Origin: Plantibacter flavus
GTDB taxonomy: Bacteria; Actinomycetota; Actinomycetes; Actinomycetales; Microbacteriaceae
Direction: 5' to 3'
Length of the DNA: 64,000 nucleotides
NCBI RefSeq assembly: GCF_002024505.1
Contig: NZ_CP019402.1
Span: forward strand, 3,534,001-3,598,000
Translations under genes and position numbers: made by a program
The notes under the pieces: model-generated
Databases searched by the model: none
Told to the model about the DNA's origin: nothing
Seen by the model: only the letters and a program-made list of their open reading frames with translations
Shown here: piece by piece, positions 42,303 to 52,977 of the stretch
Numbering within the stretch: the first letter of the stretch is position 1
Layout of the letters: each line of letters starts with the position of its first letter

Positions 42303-42314
42303 ATCCTATAGGAT
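42303..42314. promoter_or_regulatory. Operator-like palindrome ATCCTATAGGAT
   Basis: A perfect 12-base palindrome in an AT-rich patch about 57 bases before the kinase start. Its core recurs at the promoter of the 52.9-kb operon. The FCD-GntR encoded in this operon is the obvious ligand. Confidence 0.7.
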
Positions 42315-42370
42315 TATCGCGATGTGCCGGCTTGCGCCGGATCGACGGACTCGATGACGAGGAGATGCAG

Positions 42371-44101
42371 ATGACCAGGCTCTGGAACCGACCGGCCGAC
42401 TTCGCGGATGAGATGGTGGACGGCTTCGTCCGCGCCAACGGACGCTGGGTGCGCAAGGTCTCCGGCGGGGTGTCGCGGTCCACGAAGTCCGCGGAACCGG
42501 AGGTCGCCCTCGTGATCGGTGGCGGATCCGGCCACTACCCCGCCTTCGCCGGCCTCGTCGGCCCGGGACTCGCCCACGGCGCGGCCATGGGCAACCTCTT
42601 CGCCTCGCCGTCCGCGCACCAGGTGGAGAGCGTCGTCCGCGCGAGCGAGCAGGGACGGGGCGTCCTCCTCAGCTACGGCAACTACGCCGGCGACGTCCTG
42701 CACTTCACCGCCGCCCAGGACGCCGTGCGTGCCGACGGCATCGACTGCCGCACCGTCACCGTGACCGACGACATCTTCAGCGCACCGCCCACCGAACTCG
42801 AGAAGCGCCGCGGGATCGCGGGCGACCTCACCGTCTTCAAGGTCGCGGGCGGCGCTGCCGCTGGTGGGTACTCCATCGATGATGTCGAGCGTGTGGCGGT
42901 CCTGGCCAACGCCCGGACCCGTTCGATGGGTGTCGCGTTCTCCGGGTGCACGCTGCCCGGTGCCGACGAACCGCTGTTCTCCGTGCCGGAGGGACGCATG
43001 GCCGTCGGGCTCGGCATCCACGGCGAGCCCGGCATCGACGAGACCGACATCCCCTCCGCGGACGGACTGGCGGAGTTGTTCGTGCACCACCTCCTGGCCG
43101 AGGCCGAGATCCCGGAGGGCGTCACCCCGAAGGGAGCGCGTGTCGTCCCGATCCTCAACGGCCTCGGCTCCGTGAAGTCCGAAGAGCTGTTCGTCGTCTA
43201 CGACCGCATCGCCTCCCTGCTGGAGGACGCCGGGATCACCCTCGTCGACCCGCAGGTCGGGGAGTTCTGCACGAGCTTCGACATGGCCGGCGTCTCGCTC
43301 ACCCTGCTCTGGGTGGACGAGGAGCTGGAGCGACTGTGGAGTGCCGCTGCGGACACGCCCGCGTTCCGCACGGGTGCCGTCGACACCGGCGCCCTCGAGA
43401 CCGTGGCCGCCGACGACACCGAGGACGTCGCCTTCCAGGTCCCGGACGCCTCGCCCGAGTCCCAGGAGTCGGCGGCGGTCGTCGCCGACGCGATCACCGC
43501 GATCCACGAACTCCTCGCGGAGCACGCGGACGAGCTGGGACGCCTCGACGCCATCGTCGGCGACGGCGACCACGGCATCGGCATGGACCGCGGGGCGACC
43601 GCCGCCGCCGAGGAGGCCGGGCGACTGCGCGAGGCCGGTGCCGGCGTGGCGACCCTCCTCGACCGCGCGGGCGACGCCTGGTCCGACCGCGCCGGTGGCA
43701 CCTCGGGTGCACTGTGGGGCGTCATGCTCCGCACCCTCGGCGAGCGCCTCGGCGACGCCGAGCGCCCGACCGCCACCGCTGTGAGCGAGGGCGTGACCGC
43801 CGCCAAGAACGCCGTCATGCGCTACGGCAAGGCCTCCGTCGGCGACAAGACGCTCGTCGACGCGCTGGTCCCGTTCGCCGACACGCTGGCCGAGCGCGTC
43901 GCCGCCGAAGACGACCTCTCCGCCGCCTGGACCACGGCGGCGGCAGCGGCCACCACCGCTGCCCACGACACGGCCGGTCTCATGCCCGGCATGGGCCGCG
44001 CCCGCTCGCACGGCTCGAAGGCCGTCGGCGTCGAGGACCCCGGAGCCGTCTCGCTCGCCCTCATCGTGGAGCGTGTCGGCACCCTCCTCGCCGAGCGCTG
44101 A
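42371..44101 (+). CDS. Fused DhaK-DhaL-type ketose kinase (candidate erythrulose kinase)
   Basis: A 576-residue single-chain ATP-dependent dihydroxyacetone-kinase-family enzyme. The K domain has the substrate-binding histidine in GLGIHGEPGID and the GGGSGHYPAFAG loop. The L domain (from about residue 380) has the Mg-ADP aspartates in VGDGDHGIGMDRG and GGTSGALWG. Operon partners (RpiB-family and TPI-family isomerases, FCD-GntR) are those of tetritol/erythrulose catabolism, so L- or D-erythrulose is a better guess than dihydroxyacetone. GAGGAG six bases upstream sets the start; an ATG two codons earlier is possible. Confidence 0.88.
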   Translation: MTRLWNRPADFADEMVDGFVRANGRWVRKVSGGVSRSTKSAEPEVALVIGGGSGHYPAFAGLVGPGLAHGAAMGNLFASPSAHQVESVVRASEQGRGVLLSYGNYAGDVLHFTAAQDAVRADGIDCRTVTVTDDIFSAPPTELEKRRGIAGDLTVFKVAGGAAAGGYSIDDVERVAVLANARTRSMGVAFSGCTLPGADEPLFSVPEGRMAVGLGIHGEPGIDETDIPSADGLAELFVHHLLAEAEIPEGVTPKGARVVPILNGLGSVKSEELFVVYDRIASLLEDAGITLVDPQVGEFCTSFDMAGVSLTLLWVDEELERLWSAAADTPAFRTGAVDTGALETVAADDTEDVAFQVPDASPESQESAAVVADAITAIHELLAEHADELGRLDAIVGDGDHGIGMDRGATAAAEEAGRLREAGAGVATLLDRAGDAWSDRAGGTSGALWGVMLRTLGERLGDAERPTATAVSEGVTAAKNAVMRYGKASVGDKTLVDALVPFADTLAERVAAEDDLSAAWTTAAAAATTAAHDTAGLMPGMGRARSHGSKAVGVEDPGAVSLALIVERVGTLLAER

Positions 44102-44124
44102 CGCCCGATCCCTGAGCAGTCCAC

Positions 44125-44148
44125 GGTCCCTGAGCCTGTCGACGGGCC
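44125..44148 (+). repeat. Dispersed repeat copy
   Basis: GGTCCCTGAGCCTGTCGACG plus GGCC lies between the kinase and isomerase genes of one operon. Confidence 0.7.
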
Positions 44149-44173
44149 CCGCTCCAACAACGAAAGGCACACC

Positions 44174-44635
44174 ATGACCCGCACCTGGCGAATCGTCATC
44201 GGCTCCGATGACGCCGGTTACGACTACAAGGAGATCCTCAAGCGCGACCTCGAGGCGAGCGATCTGGTCGCCTCCGTGGTCGACGTCGGGGTCGACGCCG
44301 ACGGCCACACCAACTACCCGACCGTCGCGGTGACCGCGGCCGAGATCGTCGCCCGCGGCGAGGCCGACCGCGCGCTGCTCATCTGCGGCACGGGCCTCGG
44401 TGTCGCGATCGCGGCGAACAAGGTCCAGGGCATCCGAGCCGTCACCGCGCACGACGGATTCTCCGTCGAACGCGGGGTGCTGTCGAACGACGCCCAGGTG
44501 CTCTGCATGGGCCAGCGCGTCGTCGGCATCGAACTCGCCCGCCGCAACGTGCGCGAGTGGCTCACCTACGAGTTCGACGCCTCGAGCGCGTCGAACGACA
44601 AGGTGCAGGAGATCAGCGCGTACGAAGCGTCCTGA
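44174..44635 (+). CDS. RpiB/LacAB-family sugar-phosphate isomerase
   Basis: A 153-residue isomerase. Family signatures are [14 protein letters not shown], the catalytic cysteine loop [19 protein letters not shown], and [14 protein letters not shown]. Annotation pipelines would call it ribose-5-phosphate isomerase B. Beside a DhaK-type kinase and a TPI paralogue it more likely interconverts D-erythrulose 4-phosphate and D-erythrose 4-phosphate, like EryI in Brucella and DerI in mycobacteria. That assignment is contextual. Confidence 0.9.
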
Positions 44636-45438
44636 TGTCAGGACGTCCCAGACTCGTCGGCGTGAGCCTGAAGATGTACTTCGGGCACGCGCAGACGCTC
44701 GACTGGTGCTCGGTCGTCGCGGGGGTGTCGGCCGAGCACCACGCACTCCGATCCGGCGCGGCTGAGCTGTTCGTCATCCCCGGATACCTCTCGGTGACCG
44801 GCGCGGTCGAGCGGCTCCACGGCGTCGCGTCCGTGGGGGCTCAGGACCTCGCGACCGAGGACACCGGGGCGTTCACCGGCGAGGTGAGCGGTGCCGAGCT
44901 CCGCGAGGTCGGCTGCGAGGTCGTCGAGGTCGGACACGCGGAGCGACGCCGACTGTTCGGCGAGACGCCCGACGTCGTCCGCGCGAAGACGACCGCCGCG
45001 CTCCGCAACGGCCTCGCGCCGGTACTGTGCATCGGAGAGACCGAACGCGGAGACGCCGAGACGGCGGCTGAGGAATGCGTCGCACAGCTCGACGACGCCC
45101 TGGCGGGGGCGGTCGCCGCCGGGATCGTGGGCCGCGTCATCGTCGCCTACGAACCGCACTGGGCCATCGGTGCCTCCGAGGCCGCGAGTCCAGCCCACAT
45201 CCGCGCGGTGTGCCTCCGGCTGCGTGGTCACCTCGACGTCCTCGACACGAGGGGTGTGGTCGACACCTCCTCGGCCGTCATCTACGGCGGGAGCGCCGGA
45301 CCCGGCCTGCTCACCACGATCGGCGACGCGGTCGACGGGGTCTTCCTCGGCCGCTTCGCCCACGATCCGGCAGCCCTCGCGCTGGTGCTCGACGAGGTGG
45401 TCGGCCTCGACCGCGCGGGCTCCGACCTGCCGCGATGA
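44635..45438 (+). CDS. Divergent triose-phosphate-isomerase paralogue (candidate erythrulose-1-phosphate isomerase)
   Basis: A 267-residue TPI-fold barrel. The catalytic residues survive: Lys in VSLKMYF (not NWKMN), His in VGHAERRRLFGE, Glu in VAYEPHWAIG. Loop 6 reads AIGASEAASP where true TPI has AIGTGKTA. These departures fit the EryH/LerI branch that converts L-erythrulose 1-phosphate to D-erythrulose 4-phosphate. Its start overlaps the previous stop (TGATG). Confidence 0.88.
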   Translation: MSGRPRLVGVSLKMYFGHAQTLDWCSVVAGVSAEHHALRSGAAELFVIPGYLSVTGAVERLHGVASVGAQDLATEDTGAFTGEVSGAELREVGCEVVEVGHAERRRLFGETPDVVRAKTTAALRNGLAPVLCIGETERGDAETAAEECVAQLDDALAGAVAAGIVGRVIVAYEPHWAIGASEAASPAHIRAVCLRLRGHLDVLDTRGVVDTSSAVIYGGSAGPGLLTTIGDAVDGVFLGRFAHDPAALALVLDEVVGLDRAGSDLPR

Positions 45439-45504
45439 CAGCCGGAGGCCCCGTAAACTGGTCATCGACGATCATCGCGGCCGCTCGACCGGAGGTCCCC
45501 CTCC

Positions 45505-46254
45505 GTGACGACGCCTCGAGCACACCCTTCGGAGCCTGCCGTGGTTGATGCCGTGTTCCCGCTCGGCGCCTCCTCCTCGCTCGAGCGCCGTGGTCTGCGC
45601 GACCGCGTCTACGAGCTGGTGCTCGACATGCTGCTCAGCTCCGGCATCGAACCGGGCGCCCGGCTGTCCATCGACGCCATCGCCCGCGACCTCGACGTCT
45701 CACCCACGCCCGTCCGTGAGGCACTCGTCCAGTTGGAACGCACCGGGCTCGTCACCCGCGTCACCCACAAGGGCTACCGAGTGGCACCGCCGCTCGCCGA
45801 CGACCAGCTCGAGTCACTGTTCGACGCCCGCATCGTGCTCGAGAGCGGCGCCACCGCGCTGGCCGCCGCCCACGCCGACGAGCTCGTCCCGGCCCTCGAG
45901 GTCGCCCTCGCGCAGCACGTCGAGATGACCGCCAGGGTGCGCGCCGCGGCATCGGCCGGCGAGATCCCCGTCGCGCTCCTCCGCGAGTACTTCGCGGTGG
46001 ACTGGAACTTCCACCACCTCATCTTCGAGGGCACCCGCAACCCGTTCCTCCTCGACATGTCCGAGGGCATCTCCACCCGCGTGCACCGCATGCGCCAGAC
46101 GGTCGAGACGGGTGTCACCGACGCCGACCAGGCGGTCGTCGAGCACCGAGCCATCCTCGACGCGTTCTCCGACGGCCCCGAGGCCGCCGCGGCGGCCATG
46201 CGCTCGCACATCGAGCTCGTGCGCACCCGCGCTCGCACCGACGCCGAGCACTGA
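45505..46254 (+). CDS. GntR/FCD-family regulator of the sugar operon
   Basis: A 249-residue regulator. The winged helix spans residues about 30-95 (DMLLSSGIEPGARLSIDAIA, DLDVSPTPVREALVQLERTG). The FCD ligand domain has the metal-site histidines seen in family members (WNFHHLIFEGTRNPFLLDM; VVEHRAILDAFSDG; MRSHIELV). GGAGG nine bases before the GTG supports the start. It is the likely reader of the TCCTATAGGA sites at both operons. Confidence 0.92.
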   Translation: MTTPRAHPSEPAVVDAVFPLGASSSLERRGLRDRVYELVLDMLLSSGIEPGARLSIDAIARDLDVSPTPVREALVQLERTGLVTRVTHKGYRVAPPLADDQLESLFDARIVLESGATALAAAHADELVPALEVALAQHVEMTARVRAAASAGEIPVALLREYFAVDWNFHHLIFEGTRNPFLLDMSEGISTRVHRMRQTVETGVTDADQAVVEHRAILDAFSDGPEAAAAAMRSHIELVRTRARTDAEH

Positions 46255-46303
46255 GCCGCCTCACGTCCGGTGAGCGACAGCGCCAGTCACCTCCGTTTGT
46301 CTG

Positions 46304-46328
46304 GGTCGCTGAGCCTGTCGAAGTGCCC
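46304..46328 (+). repeat. Dispersed repeat copy
   Basis: GGTCGCTGAGCCTGTCGAAG plus TGCCC marks the left border of the atypical insert. Confidence 0.7.
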
Positions 46329-46361
46329 AGCAGCACCTCTCGGCATCCCGGACCGACGCTG

Positions 46362-46367
46362 TAGAAT
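46362..46367 (+). promoter_or_regulatory. -10 hexamer of leaderless antitoxin-position gene
   Basis: TAGAAT, six bases (CGCGCC), ATG. Confidence 0.5.
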
Positions 46368-46373
46368 CGCGCC

Positions 46374-46715
46374 ATGTCCACCTCGGCAGCATCCGCGCGT
46401 GAGGCTCGAGTCTTCTACGAAGACATCAAGCCGTACGACGTTCCGGCGAGCCTCGACGAGCTTCACGGGCCCGAGCATGGTCTCCTCGATCTACCAATCA
46501 CGGTCTACTGGGGCCCCGCGAGCATCGTCGACCTCGATACGCCTGGCGGCATAGCAAAGGCCTATCAAGCGGTCCTGCGGGAGGGTCGCGTCTCCGACCA
46601 AATCACGCTGCTCAATCAGCGGCGTCTCGTCCAGGTCTGGCCCGAGCTCCTGCTCCCCACCCGCGTCCGCGAACTCTGGGAGACCCGTTTCCCTCCACTC
46701 TCCACGGCCGCGTGA
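46374..46715 (+). CDS. Unknown protein in antitoxin position
   Basis: I do not recognise this 113-residue protein as a family. It is acidic and helical with no helix-turn-helix that I can see; the C-terminus (QRRLVQVWPELLLPTRVREL) is amphipathic. It overlaps the AbiEii-type nucleotidyltransferase gene by four bases and precedes it, the normal order for an antitoxin. Codon use is less GC-biased than its neighbours. Confidence 0.7.
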   Translation: MSTSAASAREARVFYEDIKPYDVPASLDELHGPEHGLLDLPITVYWGPASIVDLDTPGGIAKAYQAVLREGRVSDQITLLNQRRLVQVWPELLLPTRVRELWETRFPPLSTAA

Positions 46716-47398
46716 ACGACAACGAAGCGCTCCAGCGTGAGTTGACCAGGATCGCCCTCGACGCCGTCGGGAGCGACGGGTTCGCCCTTGCCGGTTCAGG
46801 AGCCATCCGCGAGCACGGTCTCGTCGACCGGCTGACTCACGACGTCGACCTCTTCACGAACAATGTCGATCCTGCGGCGTTCGAACTCGCGGTCGATCGA
46901 CTCGCCGTCGAACTGCGTCGGACAGGCCATGGGGTCGATGAAGTGCGCCGCCACCGGCAGTTCGCCCAGCTCCATGTCTCCACCGAGGACGGTCGGGCCG
47001 TCGAGATCGACCTCGCCGTGGATTGGCGCGAGCTCGAACCGGTGAAACTGTCCGTCGGCCCGGTCTTGAGCGTGACTGACGCTGTGGCGAGTAAGGTCGG
47101 TGCCTTGTACACCCGTCTCGAGGCACGAGACTTCATCGACGTCGACGCGATCCGTCTCTCTGGGCGATTCACCGATGACCAATTGCTCGCCGCGGTCGCT
47201 GAGCGTGATGCCGGCTTCGAACGCACCATGTTCGCCGACCAGCTGCAGCAGATCCGTCGCGTCACGGATGACAGATTCACGGAGTACGGGCACGCGCTCG
47301 AGCAGATTGTTGCGTTGAAGCAACGTTTCATGGACTGGGCATCGGAGCTGCGTGGGGAATCCGCCACGAGTTCATCGGGGCTTTCGCCGCTCGTTTGA
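46712..47398 (+). CDS. AbiEii/MenT-type nucleotidyltransferase toxin
   Basis: A 228-residue DNA-polymerase-beta-fold nucleotidyltransferase. The motif is AGSGAIREHGLVDRLTHDVD (GS then DVD), a third acidic residue lies in VEIDLAVDW, and the C-terminal helical half has LEARDFIDVDAIRLSG as in AbiEii/AbiGii toxins. Such enzymes add nucleotides to tRNA or act in abortive infection. The start is GTG overlapping the upstream gene. Confidence 0.87.
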   Translation: MNDNEALQRELTRIALDAVGSDGFALAGSGAIREHGLVDRLTHDVDLFTNNVDPAAFELAVDRLAVELRRTGHGVDEVRRHRQFAQLHVSTEDGRAVEIDLAVDWRELEPVKLSVGPVLSVTDAVASKVGALYTRLEARDFIDVDAIRLSGRFTDDQLLAAVAERDAGFERTMFADQLQQIRRVTDDRFTEYGHALEQIVALKQRFMDWASELRGESATSSSGLSPLV

Positions 47399-47428
47399 CG
47401 ACGAGAAGCGCCCTGGCCTCATTTCATT

Positions 47429-47447
47429 CTGAAATCTTCTATTTCAG
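47429..47447. terminator. AT-rich perfect hairpin
   Basis: CTGAAAT and ATTTCAG pair around CTTCT, between the toxin gene and the membrane protein gene. It could be a terminator or an operator. Confidence 0.4.
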
Positions 47448-47469
47448 TGACTGTGTGTGAAGCTGGGGC

Positions 47470-48429
47470 GTGTCGTTCATCGTGAAGCGAAAAACCGTGT
47501 CCAAACGAATCTCTGTTCCGTCGTCGCTCATCGGGTCCGCCATCTGGACTCTCGTCGCCGTCCAAGCCGGGCTCAGCATCGGATTGGCCTTCAGCGTGCA
47601 GTGCGCTGGATGGATCCTCGGCCTCTTCGGCGAACCGTACCCAGACCTCAACGAGGTTGTCACGGCCGTCTACGCGTGTGCTCTTGCGTTCAACTTCGTC
47701 CTGGTGGGTTTCATCGGTTGGATGCTCCTGGGCTCGACTGGCGCAACAGAGCGGAGCATTCTGGCGCATCTCAAGCTCGTCTTCGGTTCGCGAACCGCAT
47801 GGTGGTTCGCTTCATGGTGGGCCTCAGGGAGCATGACGCTCATGGTTGTCGCTGGCTACGAACGGTACGGCGGCTTCAGTGTGGGTGCATTGGTCGCAAC
47901 CCCGGTGCTGTCACTCATCACCTTCTGGCCAGCACTCACAGGCCTCGTACGAATCTGGCGCCTCAATCGACGGGAACCGTATTTCGCCGGGCTCTCCGCG
48001 GAGGAGTGCCTCAGACTGCAGCCTGCGACCTTCTCCCACCGACCGAACGCGCTCGCCAGACTTGATGCCGTTGCAGACCATGACGAGGCGAACCGGTACG
48101 CTCGCCTGGCCAGATCCATGGGACGGAACCGCAGCTATGCATCGGCGTTCATCCTGCTCATCGCGACTGCTGGGTTCGGCTTGGGTCTGACACGAGCACT
48201 GGAACCGGCCCTCGCGGCGGTGCCGCTCCTGTCGACCACCCTCACGCTGCTGATGATCGGGCACTGGATGCGCGACAGAGCCGACGCATTCGGGAGATCT
48301 GCCGATGAATTCGACCGACTGGCCGAGGATCTCCGCGCCTCAACGGAAGCTCCTCAGAACCGAGGGCGGGTGTGGGCGCGATCACTAACAGGCACACTGG
48401 CCGACTGGGCATCCGGCTTCGCCCGGTAG
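47470..48429 (+). CDS. Orphan membrane protein
   Basis: Not recognised. The 319 residues include four strong helices in the first half (IGSAIWTLVAVQAGLSIGLA, VYACALAFNFVLVGFIGWML, SMTLMVVAGYERYG, ALVATPVLSLITFW). A charged cytosolic stretch and two more helices (ASAFILLIATAGFGLGLTRA, LAAVPLLSTTLTLLMIGHWM) follow, then a hydrophilic tail. Codon use is less GC-biased than the flanking genes. It may belong with the toxin module as cargo of one transfer event. Confidence 0.7.
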   Translation: MSFIVKRKTVSKRISVPSSLIGSAIWTLVAVQAGLSIGLAFSVQCAGWILGLFGEPYPDLNEVVTAVYACALAFNFVLVGFIGWMLLGSTGATERSILAHLKLVFGSRTAWWFASWWASGSMTLMVVAGYERYGGFSVGALVATPVLSLITFWPALTGLVRIWRLNRREPYFAGLSAEECLRLQPATFSHRPNALARLDAVADHDEANRYARLARSMGRNRSYASAFILLIATAGFGLGLTRALEPALAAVPLLSTTLTLLMIGHWMRDRADAFGRSADEFDRLAEDLRASTEAPQNRGRVWARSLTGTLADWASGFAR

Positions 48430-48462
48430 AGGCGCGCAGGAGCAATACTCCTCAGTACAAGA

Positions 48463-48494
48463 ACGGGGCCGACCGCCTGAGCGATCAACCCCGT
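48463..48494 (-). terminator. Weak hairpin at MFS operon end
   Basis: ACGGGG and CCCCGT can pair around a 20-base loop downstream of the MFS stop. Confidence 0.3.
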
Positions 48495-48512
48495 CCGGGA
48501 GTTGCGTCGTGA

Positions 48513-49886
48513 CTAGTGCGCCGTGCGGGTCGCCGTCGTCTCGAGCAGCTCGTCCGCCTTCGCCCCACGGAAGAACCGGGTGCAGTAGAGCATCGCGGCC
48601 GCGAGGAAGGCGAACACGCCGAGCGAGACCACACCCCACACGCCGCTGTCGGTCGGCACGCTCTCGTTGATCCCGGTGCGCATGATCGGGGCGACGAAGC
48701 CGCCGAGGTTACCGAGCGAGTTGATGAGGCCGATGCCCGCCGCCGCAGCCGTTCCGGTGAGGAACGCCGTCGGGTAGGCCCACGTGATCGGCCCGACCGA
48801 GAGGAAGCTCGCCACCGCGATGGTGATGAACAGGATGCCGAGGATCGGCTGGTTGTTCGCGCCCGCCCAGGCCGAGGCCAGGATGAACACGCCGGTGGAG
48901 ATGTAGAACCACGTGCCCCAGGTGCGGCGCCGGACGACCGTGTTCGCGTTCCGTCCCACGTAGTAGCAGGCGAACAGACCCACGAGCCACGGGATGGCCG
49001 CCACGAGACCGACCTGCCAACCGACGTCCTGACCGATGAGGTTCGACACCTGCTGCGGGAGGTAGAACGTCGTGCCGTACACCGCGATCTGCAGGCAGAA
49101 GTAGATGATGGTGAAGTACCACACCTTCCAACTCGTCATCGCCTTCGCGATACCGGTCGGGCCGTCCGACTGCCGGACGGTGTCCTCGCGTTCCATCGCG
49201 GCCGTCAACGAGTCCTTCTCCTGTTGGTCCAGCCACTTCGCCTGTTGCGGCGAGTTGGTGAGGAAGTAGAGCGCGGCGAAACCGGCGAGGACCGCGAGCA
49301 TGCCCTCGGCGAAGAACATCACCTGCCAGCCGTGCCACGGGGTCAGGGCGTCACCGAAGCTGATGAGGCCACCGCTCAGCGGCGCGCCGAGCATCTGCGA
49401 GAAGGGCTGTGCCAGGTAGAAGATCGAGAACATCTGGACGCGGACCTTGTTCGGGAACCACTCCGACAGGAACATGATGACGCCGGGGAAGAGCCCGGCC
49501 TCGGTCACGCCGAGCAGGAAGCGCAGGACGATGAACATCGTGTCGTTCGTCGTGAAGGCGAACAGGGCGGCGACGATGCCCCAGGTCACTGCGATGCGGG
49601 CGAGCCAGAACCGGGCGCCGAACTTCTTCAGCAGCAGGTTGCTCGGGATCTCGAAGATCGCGTAGCCGATGAAGAAGATGCCGGCACCGAGGGCGAAGGC
49701 ACCGTTCGAGATGCCGCGGTCGACGCTGAGCGCCTCCTCGGCGAAGCCGACGTTCGTGCGATCCAGGAACGCGACGAAGTACAGGATGACGAGCATCGGC
49801 ATGAGGTGCTTCGACGCCTTGCGGATCGCCGACTTCAGCGCCGGATCGTTGGTCGATCCGATCGCCGGCGGATTGGGTGTGGACAA
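48513..49886 (-). CDS. MFS transporter, anion:cation symporter type
   Basis: A 457-residue, 12-helix transporter. The sequence LDRTNVGFAEEALSVDRGIS, FIGYAIFEIPSNLLLKKFGA and RFLLGVTEAGLFPGVIMFLS is typical of the ACS branch that carries organic and sugar acids (galactonate, tartrate, phthalate). The start is TTG with GGAG eight bases upstream. It is the last gene of the operon beginning at 52.9 kb, so it probably imports the pathway's sugar-acid substrate. Confidence 0.92.
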   Translation of the reverse strand: MSTPNPPAIGSTNDPALKSAIRKASKHLMPMLVILYFVAFLDRTNVGFAEEALSVDRGISNGAFALGAGIFFIGYAIFEIPSNLLLKKFGARFWLARIAVTWGIVAALFAFTTNDTMFIVLRFLLGVTEAGLFPGVIMFLSEWFPNKVRVQMFSIFYLAQPFSQMLGAPLSGGLISFGDALTPWHGWQVMFFAEGMLAVLAGFAALYFLTNSPQQAKWLDQQEKDSLTAAMEREDTVRQSDGPTGIAKAMTSWKVWYFTIIYFCLQIAVYGTTFYLPQQVSNLIGQDVGWQVGLVAAIPWLVGLFACYYVGRNANTVVRRRTWGTWFYISTGVFILASAWAGANNQPILGILFITIAVASFLSVGPITWAYPTAFLTGTAAAAGIGLINSLGNLGGFVAPIMRTGINESVPTDSGVWGVVSLGVFAFLAAAMLYCTRFFRGAKADELLETTATRTAH

Positions 49887-49953
49887 GACACTCTCCTTTG
49901 AGATGACTGGTGCGGGTGGGTGCTACTGGCGCTACTGCTGCTGCTGGCGGTGG

Positions 49954-50064
49954 TCAGGAGACCATCGAGGGGATGATCATCCAGAGGCCGATGCCGACGA
50001 AGACGACGCCGAGACCGAGGAAGATCAACCGGGATTTGGTCCACTGACCGGTGAGGTGCTGCAT
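49954..50064 (-). CDS. 36-residue single-span membrane peptide
   Basis: A short ORF with GGAG seven bases before its ATG, lying in line between the SDR and MFS genes. It encodes a basic amphipathic N-terminus (MQHLTGQWTKSR) and one strong membrane helix (LIFLGLGVVFVGIGLWMIIP). Placement directly upstream of a transporter suggests an accessory or stabilising subunit. There is no family name that I know. Confidence 0.7.
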   Translation of the reverse strand: MQHLTGQWTKSRLIFLGLGVVFVGIGLWMIIPSMVS

Positions 50065-50100
50065 GGTGCTGCTCCGTTCGCTCGTGGTGCGTGTGGTGGA

Positions 50101-50874
50101 TCAGTGCATGTAGAGGCCGCCGTCGACGTTCAGCGTCTGACCGGTGACGAAGCCGGCGTCCTCACTGATGAGGTAGGCGATGGCGGCCGCGATGTCGCGC
50201 GGGGTGCCGATGCGCGGCAGGACGCCGTCGGCGGCCATGGCCGTCTTGCGCTCCTCGGTGAGGGTGCCGCCCATGATGTCGGTGTCGATGGGTCCGGGCG
50301 AGATGGCGTTGACCGTGATGCCGTCGTGGCCGAGCTCGCGGGCGACGCTGCGGGTGAAGCCGATCACGCCGGCCTTCGCCGCCGAGTAGGCCGTCTTGCT
50401 GAAGGTGCCGCCGCCGCGCTGGGCGGAGACGGACGACAGGCTGACGACACGACCGACGCCGTTCGACACCATCGACTCGACCGCACGGCGGGTCGTGTAG
50501 TGGACGCCGTTGAGGTTGATGTCGATGACGCGCTGCCACTCGTCGGCGCTCACCTCGAGGTAGGGCACCGGTGAGGCGACGCCCGCGAGGTTCACGAGGG
50601 CGACGAGCTGCGGGAGGGACGCTTCGAGTGCGTCGAACGCGGCACGAACCTGCGCCTCGTCGGCGACGTTCGCGCCGGCGCCGGCCGCCTGCACCCCGTG
50701 CTGCTCCGCGATCTCGGCGGCGACCGCCTGGGCCGCAGCCTCGTCGAGATCGATGATCCCGATGTTCCAGCCGAGTTCGGCGAGGTGATGGGCTGAGGCG
50801 CGACCGATGCCGCGCGGGGAGGCTGCGCCGGTGAGGACGACGGTCTTGGATTCGGGGAAGGTGGTGGCGGTCAT
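50101..50874 (-). CDS. SDR-family oxidoreductase
   Basis: A 257-residue classical short-chain dehydrogenase. The cofactor motif is TGAASPRGIGRASAHHLAEL with acidic IDLDEA, favouring NAD. The catalytic set is Ser in LSSVSAQRGG, YSAAK and the PGPIDTD loop, and the C-terminus has FVTGQTLNVDGG. It likely oxidises a sugar, alditol or sugar acid in the operon's pathway; the exact substrate is unknown. Confidence 0.92.
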   Translation of the reverse strand: MTATTFPESKTVVLTGAASPRGIGRASAHHLAELGWNIGIIDLDEAAAQAVAAEIAEQHGVQAAGAGANVADEAQVRAAFDALEASLPQLVALVNLAGVASPVPYLEVSADEWQRVIDINLNGVHYTTRRAVESMVSNGVGRVVSLSSVSAQRGGGTFSKTAYSAAKAGVIGFTRSVARELGHDGITVNAISPGPIDTDIMGGTLTEERKTAMAADGVLPRIGTPRDIAAAIAYLISEDAGFVTGQTLNVDGGLYMH

Positions 50875-50949
50875 GGCCGGCCTTTCTGCGTGGGAGTGGT
50901 GAAGTCGGTGTCCGATCGAGTCGGACGTTGCGTTCGGTCGGCGCCGCGC

Positions 50950-51903
50950 TCAGTTGATGGGTGCGGGGCCGAGCTCGTCCATGAGCCGCTTGATCGCGAC
51001 GTACGCCTTGTTGCGGTAGGCGATCAGCTCGGGGGTGCGGTCGGCCGGGACGTCGAGGTAGCCGGCACCCGACTTGGTGCCGAACTTGCCGGCGTCGACG
51101 AGTTCCTTGAGGGAGTCCGGTGTGGCGAACCGCTCGGGCCACCGGGTCTGGAGCGAGGCGTAGCAGAACGAGTACACGTCGAGTCCGGCCATGTCGGCGA
51201 TCGCGAAGGGACCGAAGACGGGGAGCCGGAAGCCGAAGGTGGTGCGGACGATCGTGTCGATGTCCTCGGGCGTCGCGACGCCCTCCTCGACGAGCTGCGT
51301 CGCCTCGTGGAACAGCGCGTACTGCAGGCGGTTCAGCACGAAGCCGGTGGCGTCCTTGACGCGGGCGGTCTCCTTGCCGGTCGCCGCGACGATCTCCTCG
51401 ACGGTGGCGATCGCCGCATCGGCTGTGGTCTCGTGCGGGATGAGTTCGACGCCGGGGATGAACGGGGCAGGGTTCGAGAAGTGGACGCCGAGGAACCGCT
51501 CCGGGTTCGTGACGGCCTCGGCGAGTGAACCGATGAGGATGGTCGAGGTGTTCGAGCCGATGATGGCGTCGGGTGAGGCTGCGGCGCTGATGCGACGGAG
51601 GGTCTCGTGCTTGATCTCGATCTTCTCGGGGACGGCCTCCTCGATGAAGTCGGCTCCGGTGACCGCCTCCTCGATGGACGCGGCGGGCGAGACGTTGGCG
51701 AGGATCCGCTCCACGGCATCGGCCGGGAAGAGTCCGTCGGCGACGAACTGCTCGGCCTCGGCGATGAGGCGGTCGTAGTTCTTGCGCGCGATCTCCTCGG
51801 AGATGTCGGCGATGCGGACGGTGGCGCCGGACAGCGCGAGCACCTGGGCGATGCCGCCGCCCATGTACCCCGATCCGACGACGGCGATGGTGTGTGTGGT
51901 CAT
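50950..51903 (-). CDS. 3-hydroxyacyl-CoA-dehydrogenase-family enzyme (candidate sugar-acid 3-dehydrogenase)
   Basis: A 317-residue two-domain enzyme: Rossmann GSGYMGGGIAQVLALSGATV with acidic RIADISEE, catalytic His in GVHFSNPAPFIPGVELI, and C-terminal domain DATGFVLNRLQYALFHEATQ and GAGYLDVPADR. The same fold includes L-gulonate 3-dehydrogenase (lambda-crystallin), which makes 3-keto acids from sugar acids. With no fatty-acid genes near and a sugar-acid-type transporter in the operon, a 3-dehydrogenase of an aldonic acid is more likely than CoA chemistry. Confidence 0.88.
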   Translation of the reverse strand: MTTHTIAVVGSGYMGGGIAQVLALSGATVRIADISEEIARKNYDRLIAEAEQFVADGLFPADAVERILANVSPAASIEEAVTGADFIEEAVPEKIEIKHETLRRISAAASPDAIIGSNTSTILIGSLAEAVTNPERFLGVHFSNPAPFIPGVELIPHETTADAAIATVEEIVAATGKETARVKDATGFVLNRLQYALFHEATQLVEEGVATPEDIDTIVRTTFGFRLPVFGPFAIADMAGLDVYSFCYASLQTRWPERFATPDSLKELVDAGKFGTKSGAGYLDVPADRTPELIAYRNKAYVAIKRLMDELGPAPIN

Positions 51904-51930
51904 GATGAGGCTCTCCTGTGGTCGTCTGGA

Positions 51931-52884
51931 TCAGGCCTGCGGCAGCAGGGTCCTGATGTACTTCTGGTTGGTGGAGCACATGCCGAGGCTGTCGCCGCCG
52001 TAGTGCTCGGCCAGGATGATGCCGTTGAAGCCGAGCTCGACGGCGTCGCGGAAGACCTGGCGGTAGTTGATGAGCCCGGCCTCCATGGTGGAGGGCACGG
52101 ACGTCGCCCAGCTGCCGTCGGCCGCCTCGTCGCGGGTGTAGTTCTTCACGTGCATGTAGTTGGCGTAGGGCAGGGTCTTGGCGAACAGCTCGCGCCAGTC
52201 CTCCACCGGGCGGTGCAGGCGGATGAGGTTCGCGACGTCGGGGTTCAGGCCGACGTTGTCGAGCCCGACCTCCTCCACGAACCGGACCGCGCTGTCGGCG
52301 GTGCCGAGGTAGGTGTCCTCGTAGAGCTCGAGTGCGAGCGGCAGGCCGACTTCGGCCGCGTGCTTGCCGAGCTCACGGATGCGACTGACGGCGGCGTTCC
52401 AGACCTCGGGGTCGTCGGGGTCCTTCGGGCCCTGCGCGGTCCAGAACCACAGCGCCTTGCGCTGCGCGTCGTTGAACGGTTGGTGCAGGCCGGTGGAGAA
52501 GACCTGCATCCCCCACTCCGCCGCGGCGTCGATCGTGCGGTGCGCGTACTCGAGGTTGCGCTCCTCGTGGCCCGGCATGATCACGCTCTGCCGCTGCAGG
52601 TGGACGGACGGGACGCCGACGCCGTGCGACTTCGCGATGGCGAGGAACTCGTCGCGACGGGACGGTTCGAGGTCGGCGGGCCGGACATGGCTGTCGGGCA
52701 GTTCGGCGAGGGTGAACCCGACGCCGGCGACCTGCGCGAAGAGGTCGTCCCAGGCTTCGGGTTCCGCGTCGTGCAGGGAGACGCCGTTGCGGTCGACGGG
52801 CGGGATGCCGTGCAGACAGGTGGCGATGGGCCAGGTGTCGGCGGTCCATCGGGGGGTCGACGCGGTCGCGGTCGTATCCGTCAT
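51931..52884 (-). CDS. Sugar-phosphate-isomerase/epimerase-type TIM-barrel enzyme
   Basis: A 317-residue xylose-isomerase-like barrel. Candidate metal ligands occur on successive strands: Glu in LPLALELYEDTY, Asp in VGLNPDVANLIRLHRP, His in YMHVKNYTRDE, Glu in GIILAEHYGGDS. Members of this fold are isomerases, epimerases, dehydratases and, in apionate catabolism (OiaC), a 3-oxo-acid decarboxylase. It is the first gene of the operon, directly behind the TCCTATAGGA operator. Confidence 0.86.
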   Translation of the reverse strand: MTDTTATASTPRWTADTWPIATCLHGIPPVDRNGVSLHDAEPEAWDDLFAQVAGVGFTLAELPDSHVRPADLEPSRRDEFLAIAKSHGVGVPSVHLQRQSVIMPGHEERNLEYAHRTIDAAAEWGMQVFSTGLHQPFNDAQRKALWFWTAQGPKDPDDPEVWNAAVSRIRELGKHAAEVGLPLALELYEDTYLGTADSAVRFVEEVGLDNVGLNPDVANLIRLHRPVEDWRELFAKTLPYANYMHVKNYTRDEAADGSWATSVPSTMEAGLINYRQVFRDAVELGFNGIILAEHYGGDSLGMCSTNQKYIRTLLPQA

Positions 52885-52937
52885 GATGCTCCATTGCGCT
52901 CAGGGACTGCTCGGGGCTGGTGCTCCCGGTCAAAAAG

Positions 52938-52949
52938 ATCCTATAGGAA
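52938..52949. promoter_or_regulatory. Operator-like palindrome, second site
   Basis: ATCCTATAGGAA, whose inner ten bases are identical to the site at 42303. On the coding strand it lies directly downstream of the -10, where a bound repressor would block initiation. Confidence 0.7.
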
Positions 52950-52977
52950 ATAGTAAAGCGTTTCCACGAATGCGCAA
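52950..52977 (-). promoter_or_regulatory. Promoter of the oxidoreductase/MFS operon
   Basis: TTGCGC (-35) and TACTAT (-10) are spaced by 16 bases, about 65 bases before the TIM-barrel gene start. GGAAACGCTTT between them resembles a LacI-type half-site, so catabolite control is possible. Confidence 0.55.

Follow-up and report, generated by a model that had tools for sequence, protein, structure and literature searches.

Tetritol routes lead to erythrose-4-phosphate through a Dak-type kinase, a paralogue of triosephosphate isomerase (TPI) and an RpiB paralogue. Erythrulose intermediates of tetritol use in Mycolicibacterium smegmatis were reportedly described by Huang et al. in 2015, and the D-apionate route is said, after Carter et al. 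in 2018, to proceed through ApnO, OiaC, LerK, LerI and DerI. L-gulonate 3-dehydrogenase (lambda-crystallin) oxidises a sugar acid at C3, and decarboxylation then gives a ketose. Published accounts mention erythrulose intermediates in M. smegmatis tetritol use (PMC12780249), place EryH and EryI in the Brucella-type erythritol route (PMC10190533) and include a RuBisCO-like branch in the D-apionate route (PMC6302742). We describe here two operons in a 64,000-nucleotide stretch of the Plantibacter flavus genome (contig NZ_CP019402.1, positions 3,534,001 to 3,598,000; hereafter the window), each preceded by the palindrome TCCTATAGGA. One encodes a kinase, RpiB and TPI paralogues and a GntR regulator, and the other a TIM barrel, a 3HCDH-family dehydrogenase, a short-chain dehydrogenase/reductase (SDR) and a major facilitator superfamily (MFS) transporter. 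Judged from sequence, they probably form (at about 60%) one GntR/FCD-controlled route in which a C5 sugar acid would be oxidised, decarboxylated to a tetrulose and converted to erythrose-4-phosphate.

Like the D-apionate route, the predicted window route would lead from a C5 acid to a 3-oxo acid, then to L-erythrulose through an AP_endonuc_2 enzyme, and finally to erythrose-4-phosphate. Unlike that route, the window locus lacks ApnO and ApnL, the 3HCDH-family enzyme taking the dehydrogenase place, and its TIM barrel belongs to another branch, a distant homologue only (26% identity by profile). The tetritol routes share the Dak-type kinase and the TPI and RpiB paralogues with the window module, and the TPI of one class-level relative (locus L100) matches PDB 11ef. 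They obtain the ketose or its phosphate from a tetritol, however, whereas the window route is predicted to obtain it from a decarboxylated sugar acid. The window dehydrogenase has the 3HCDH fold in common with L-gulonate 3-dehydrogenase (PDB 3f3s and 3ado were matched), but by score it is closer to PDB 4om8 and to CoA-type enzymes than to 3f3s.

Exact copies of TCCTATAGGA lie at 42304-42313 and 52939-52948, and allowing one mismatch revealed no further site in the window; in shuffled windows, one mismatch allowed, the mean was 0.14 sites and 0 of 100 shuffles reached two. The original prediction had noticed just these two copies, one ahead of each operon, and a scan of the genome (a single contig of 4.21 Mb, in which the two operons lie near 3.58 Mb) indeed returned exactly two exact copies in 4,211,582 bases. 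Four one-mismatch sites occur elsewhere, against 71 for a reversed-pattern control at one mismatch. The further claim that the second copy sits directly downstream of a -10 element did not hold: TACTATT precedes it, but promoter (sigma-70) scans at operators 1 and 2 matched neither.

Conservation was followed in the best 80 of 158 loci encoding a relative, fetched with their TIM gene, a set that leans towards close relatives, and in 39 further loci that may repeat genomes of the 80 (119 in total). Genes were called with a codon-usage script and labelled by BLAST thresholds, and counts "near TIM" refer to 9.5 kb around the TIM gene; some loci end close to this gene, so that absences can be contig ends, and few open reading frames (ORFs) were called near it in L203 and L204. 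Exact TCCTATAGGA lies upstream of the TIM gene in 70 of the 80 loci, with one mismatch in 4 more, and upstream of the kinase (DAK) gene in 36/68, with one mismatch in 3 more; of the remaining 29 DAK genes, about 25 stand inside a one-operon cluster like that of Curtobacterium. All 113 exact copies in the 80 loci stand within 400 bp upstream of TIM (70), DAK (38), a second MFS (3) or PdxA-like (2) genes, which agrees with the common regulon proposed for both operons, and 21 of them also face a divergent neighbour. The 876 other genes used as a control set had 23 exact sites, which belonged to 20 genes divergent from TIM or DAK, 2 PdxA-like genes and 1 gene facing PdxA. PdxA modules in relatives are also preceded by the palindrome.

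Beyond these loci, WTCCTATAGGAW occurs in 46 of 199 Microbacteriaceae genomes (68 sites) and its reversed-pattern control in 3/199, while 59/199 encode the TIM barrel (E <= 1e-40). When this protein is at least 68% identical, 23 of 24 genomes have WTCCTATAGGAW, 22 of them within 300 bp of TIM, compared with 23/175 for the other genomes; for TIM relatives of 45-58% identity the site is upstream in 8/38. Relatives were found in 4 of 396 genomes of a phylum sample (E <= 1e-30) and in 19 of 394 of a class sample queried with the L101 protein, each count including the own genome, and among 201 genomes from the family of G080 the starting genome itself was the only one found. On the strength of these sequence comparisons, the two operons almost certainly belong to a single shared regulon. 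Four loci carry lactonase-like and MFS genes, which are close to the palindrome in three of them (L178, L182, L194) and close to a PdxA-like gene in three (L178, L192, L194); these genes suggest that the regulon may be wider in some genera.

In relatives, the kinase and TIM-barrel halves are usually adjacent. In the window they are 2.26 kb apart (46255-48512), separated by three ORFs of 113, 228 and 319 aa, the second AbiEii-like (PF08843) and the third without a family match. Since three other Plantibacter loci (L019-L021) do not have this stretch, the "split" of the regulon is a feature of the window strain and not of the system: the description as a split regulon fits this strain, with its 2.26-kb insertion, but not its relatives, where the halves usually stand together. 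MFS and GntR genes are convergent with a small gap in many loci (e.g. L019-L021, L027, L031), and in others (e.g. L042, L090) TIM follows the kinase operon in the same orientation. In Curtobacterium, GntR-TIM-HCDH-SDR-MFS-DAK-TPI form one operon with one operator, and L101 has a one-operon form with a different gene order. Many Curtobacterium loci in the set are of the one-operon form. Curtobacterium isolates have been described from tetrose enrichments, Eru-6 from L-erythrulose and Ery-28b, which cannot use L-erythrulose (PMC12780249). In the Clavibacter loci L076, L080, L082 and L084 the cluster has no SDR or MFS gene, and TIM-HCDH adjoins genes resembling an inositol (iol) operon, their families being named from reading the sequences.

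As for the tetrulose module, DAK was found near TIM in 68/80 loci and in 96/119 of the whole set. The kinase, TPI and RpiB families all lie in one operon of the window, separate from the housekeeping TPI and RpiB. Three TPI-family genes occur in the genome, namely that of the window, a copy at 259.6 kb that is 65% identical to it, and the glycolytic gene, which stands apart next to ORFs resembling GAPDH and PGK (identified by reading their sequences); RpiB paralogues elsewhere comprise one of 79% identity at 259 kb and a distant one of 29%. The kinase/TPI-paralogue/RpiB set of the original prediction is therefore distinct from the housekeeping genes found elsewhere in the genome. In L100, with the gene groups TPI-RpiB-DAK-GntR and TIM-HCDH-GntP, the best match of the TPI is the L-erythrulose-1-phosphate isomerase PDB 11ef (237 bits, versus 147 for the best triosephosphate isomerase).

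The TIM barrel groups with PDB 5tnv, a xylose-isomerase-like TIM barrel of M. smegmatis whose entry titles state no function; beyond 5tnv, fold neighbours were uninformative as a guide to function. Its residues E186, D216, H245 and E293 are present in at least 97% of 117 sequences. Compared with the TIM barrels of ApnO-type loci, it gave an hhalign probability of 96.8% and 26% identity over 191 columns, with similar metal-site motifs. Its neighbours in the 119 loci are HCDH in 91, a PdxA-like gene in 13, both in 1, an IPMDH-like gene in 4 and none of these in 12; of the IPMDH-like neighbours, those of L127 and L191 come with a TTT transporter, and those of L190 and L206 may be the leucine enzyme. 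Because the TIM barrel stays with the kinase/isomerase set while the dehydrogenase changes (3HCDH, PdxA-like, IPMDH-like), its most likely role is the decarboxylation of a 3-oxo acid to erythrulose. A decarboxylase acting as OiaC does had been proposed for it: the role fits the dehydrogenase swaps, but the separate apionate-type locus described below has a different TIM barrel, so the window protein is not the local OiaC counterpart.

The window dehydrogenase, whose named matches of 98-99% identity are from Plantibacter, has the two 3HCDH domains as well as the catalytic His-Glu pair. PDB 1f12 has identical residues at the positions aligned with S120, H141, N144, E153 and N191, and these five, like D33 and R226, are at least 97% conserved in 93 sequences; we take D33 to be a residue of the NAD type. 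Compared with the three CoA-type enzymes aligned, the loop around R226 has three additional residues; in 4om8, an enzyme acting on a pyridine carboxylate, it has the same length. This shared long loop hints that the substrate may be a sugar acid and not a CoA ester. The scores were 180.6 bits for 4om8 and 125.6 bits for 3f3s, with CoA-type enzymes also above 3f3s. Elsewhere in the genome the dehydrogenase has just one other match, of 26% identity. The SDR could either produce the sugar acid or act on it as an epimerase.

In the proposed mechanism, the GntR protein, in which both a winged helix-turn-helix and an FCD domain are present, would bind TCCTATAGGA close to the start of each operon, thereby repressing both, and would be released when an intermediate accumulates. 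The MFS transporter, to judge from its family, would import a C5 sugar acid, and the 3HCDH-family enzyme would oxidise the 3-hydroxyl of this presumed substrate with NAD, as family chemistry and the conserved catalytic residues suggest. The TIM barrel would then convert the 3-oxo acid into L-erythrulose, a step suggested by its linkage to the kinase and isomerases and by its motifs in common with the apionate-type TIM. By analogy with the characterised L-erythrulose route, the Dak-type kinase would form L-erythrulose-1-phosphate, the TPI paralogue D-erythrulose-4-phosphate and the RpiB paralogue D-erythrose-4-phosphate, which would enter the pentose-phosphate pathway.

Linear pentonates are the likely substrates. 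Oxidation of an L-pentonate at C3 followed by decarboxylation gives L-erythrulose, which needs the TPI paralogue, whereas D-pentonates give D-erythrulose, which does not; an L-pentonate such as L-arabinonate is therefore favoured and would account for this gene. The gene neighbourhood in a few relatives gives hints of a pentonate, with L-arabinonate as one candidate. An ArfA arabinofuranosidase (726 bits in L128 and 712 in L202, cut-off 625) is in line with TIM-DAK-HCDH, 3 of the 119 loci (L050, L071, L137) have GH39 together with an aldo-keto reductase, and in L192 and L194 amidohydrolases resembling lactonases (NF052480, below cut-off) are found close to PdxA-like genes.

The family scans returned every enzyme family that had been assigned to the two operons, Dak1-Dak2, RpiB, TPI and GntR with FCD in one, AP_endonuc_2, 3HCDH, SDR and MFS in the other, and the membrane peptide announced between SDR and MFS was recovered as a hydrophobic ORF. 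Small ORFs resembling it occur in 26 loci of the 80-locus set, the total examined not having been counted. Intergenic parts of the window, at about 44128, 46310 and 52985, carry copies of a short dispersed repeat around CTGAGCCTGTCGA or its complement.

Table 1. Operators and genes of the two operons (window positions; functions as predicted)
Feature	Position	Strand	Remarks
Operator 1, ATCCTATAGGAT	42303..42314		Upstream of kinase operon; 56 bases before predicted kinase start 42371
Dak1-Dak2 kinase, LerK-like, predicted L-erythrulose kinase	42371..44101	+	NF011049 728 bits, cut-off 492
RpiB-family isomerase, DerI-like, predicted D-erythrulose-4-phosphate isomerase	44174..44635	+	TIGR02133 206 bits, cut-off 168
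TPI paralogue, LerI-like, predicted L-erythrulose-1-phosphate isomerase	44635..45438	+	
GntR/FCD regulator, predicted binder of both operators	45505..46254	+	PF00392 52.2 bits, PF07729 76 bits
MFS transporter, D-galactonate type, predicted sugar-acid importer	48513..49886	-	TIGR00893 260 bits, below cut-off 395
36-aa hydrophobic peptide	49954..50064	-	Between SDR and MFS genes
SDR oxidoreductase	50101..50874	-	Family match; present in 65/80 loci
3HCDH-family NAD dehydrogenase, predicted to oxidise a 3-hydroxy sugar acid at C3	50950..51903	-	
AP_endonuc_2 (PF01261) TIM barrel, 5tnv family, predicted 3-oxo-acid decarboxylase giving erythrulose	51931..52884	-	
Operator 2, ATCCTATAGGAA	52938..52949		Upstream of minus-strand TIM-barrel operon

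A second locus of the same genome, at 251-269 kb (L099), bears on the choice of substrate. There, a GntR gene adjoins MFS-DAK-RpiB-TPI, a TIM barrel of 265 aa, an ApnO-like gene, an SDR and an ApnL-like gene, a set which we take to be the D-apionate route. The ApnO-like protein matches PDB 5t57 and PF16896, the ApnL-like protein scores 178.6 against NF049900, far below the cut-off of 750, and TCCTATAGGA was not found in the L099 stretch. Since apionate-type genes thus have a locus elsewhere, with a module of their own and a different TIM barrel, the window locus probably handles another C5 acid; apionate, one of the acids named in the original prediction, is not the likeliest substrate, and a simple apionate locus was not favoured. 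ApnO was found near TIM in 0/80 loci and in 1 of the 39 further loci, there in a separate module. In L072, ApnO-like and ApnL-like pieces lie upstream of the TIM operon, the ApnO-like one just outside 9.5 kb, and L200 has both module types side by side.

Several observations weigh against the pentonate-to-tetrulose route. The proposed steps leave the SDR without an assignment, and most loci are without a pentoside hydrolase (ArfA was matched near TIM in just 3 of 119 loci, L128, L138 and L202); a branched acid is possible instead of an L-pentonate. A conserved metal site does not distinguish decarboxylases from epimerases or isomerases, and among the fold matches listed after 5tnv, those with a name are mostly epimerases, isomerases, dehydratases or hydratases. 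PdxA-type enzymes themselves yield a decarboxylated product, and the TIM barrel would have another job beside them. One locus, L170, keeps both operators, HCDH-SDR-MFS and the kinase module, with no TIM gene called beside them; its genome has a TIM relative of 42% identity elsewhere. As regards the isomerases, the RpiB scores 135 bits against the DerI model NF051858 (cut-off 240), whose name ends in Rhiz and which may be lineage-specific, and RpiB was found near TIM in just 50/80 loci. The window TPI scores 126.6 bits to a triosephosphate isomerase structure versus 105.7 to 11ef, a difference too small to decide by itself, and the cluster lacks TPI in four Rathayibacter loci and in Agreia (L022-L024, L026 and L069). 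This last absence was discarded as an argument against the module, a paralogue of 57-66% identity occurring elsewhere in all five genomes. Finally, the palindrome is also present in 8 of the 140 sampled genomes in which TIM has no match.

With a branched substrate, the SDR and the 3HCDH-family enzyme would make 3-oxo-isoapionate (for instance from isoapionate) and the TIM barrel would be a second 3-oxo-isoapionate decarboxylase, an alternative entry to the apionate route. The identity of the downstream module to that of the apionate route, the resemblance of the TIM motifs to those of ApnO-type loci and the arrangements in L200 and L072 speak for this; the scarcity of ApnO near TIM, the arabinofuranosidase neighbours and the presence of an ApnO/ApnL-type locus already equipped with its own TIM, DAK, RpiB and TPI make it unlikely. 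It is also quite unlikely that the TIM barrel is an OtnI- or ketose-3-epimerase-type isomerase or epimerase acting in the use of a C4 tetronate, with the kinase and TPI handling dihydroxyacetone and triose phosphates, since this would leave the RpiB paralogue without a role, a glycolytic TPI is present elsewhere in the genome and the L100 TPI is clearly L-erythrulose-1-phosphate isomerase-like. Its merits are that the fold neighbours of TIM, among the matches listed, are mostly 3-epimerases, that the kinase belongs to the dihydroxyacetone kinase family, and that DUF1537-type kinase and L-threonate-dehydrogenase-like genes (the latter below cut-off) occur near TIM in 13/80 loci each.

The remaining alternatives concern the palindrome. 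Its presence in the 8 genomes without a TIM match could mean that another regulator, and not the co-encoded GntR, binds it. We consider this very improbable: a GntR-family match is present in 75 of the 80 loci, a GntR-family gene (35-41% identity) starts alongside the extra palindrome sites in L175, L176 and L184, and the TNNTATANNA form presumably suits FCD regulators. A genome of 4.2 Mb is large enough for ten bases to recur by chance, but a chance match between two unrelated operons was rejected and can practically be dismissed in view of the two-copy genome count, the shuffles, the 113/113 site placement, the co-occurrence of site and TIM in Microbacteriaceae genomes, and the one-operon forms in Curtobacterium and L101.

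It is possible, if short of probable, that these operons represent a new pentonate route of plant-associated actinobacteria, combining C3 oxidation with decarboxylation to L-erythrulose by the 5tnv family and feeding erythrose-4-phosphate to the pentose-phosphate pathway, with at least three exchangeable kinds of dehydrogenase and one palindrome across genera. An open-licence literature search, of partial coverage and so not implying absence from print, returned no title on this enzyme set. If the route is as proposed, it would give a function to the structural-genomics orphan 5tnv and its relatives, and would add to the known oxidative routes for C5 sugar acids one that proceeds by oxidation at C3 and decarboxylation. 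TCCTATAGGA would then be a regulon marker, with which a DNA search would find close versions of the pathway.

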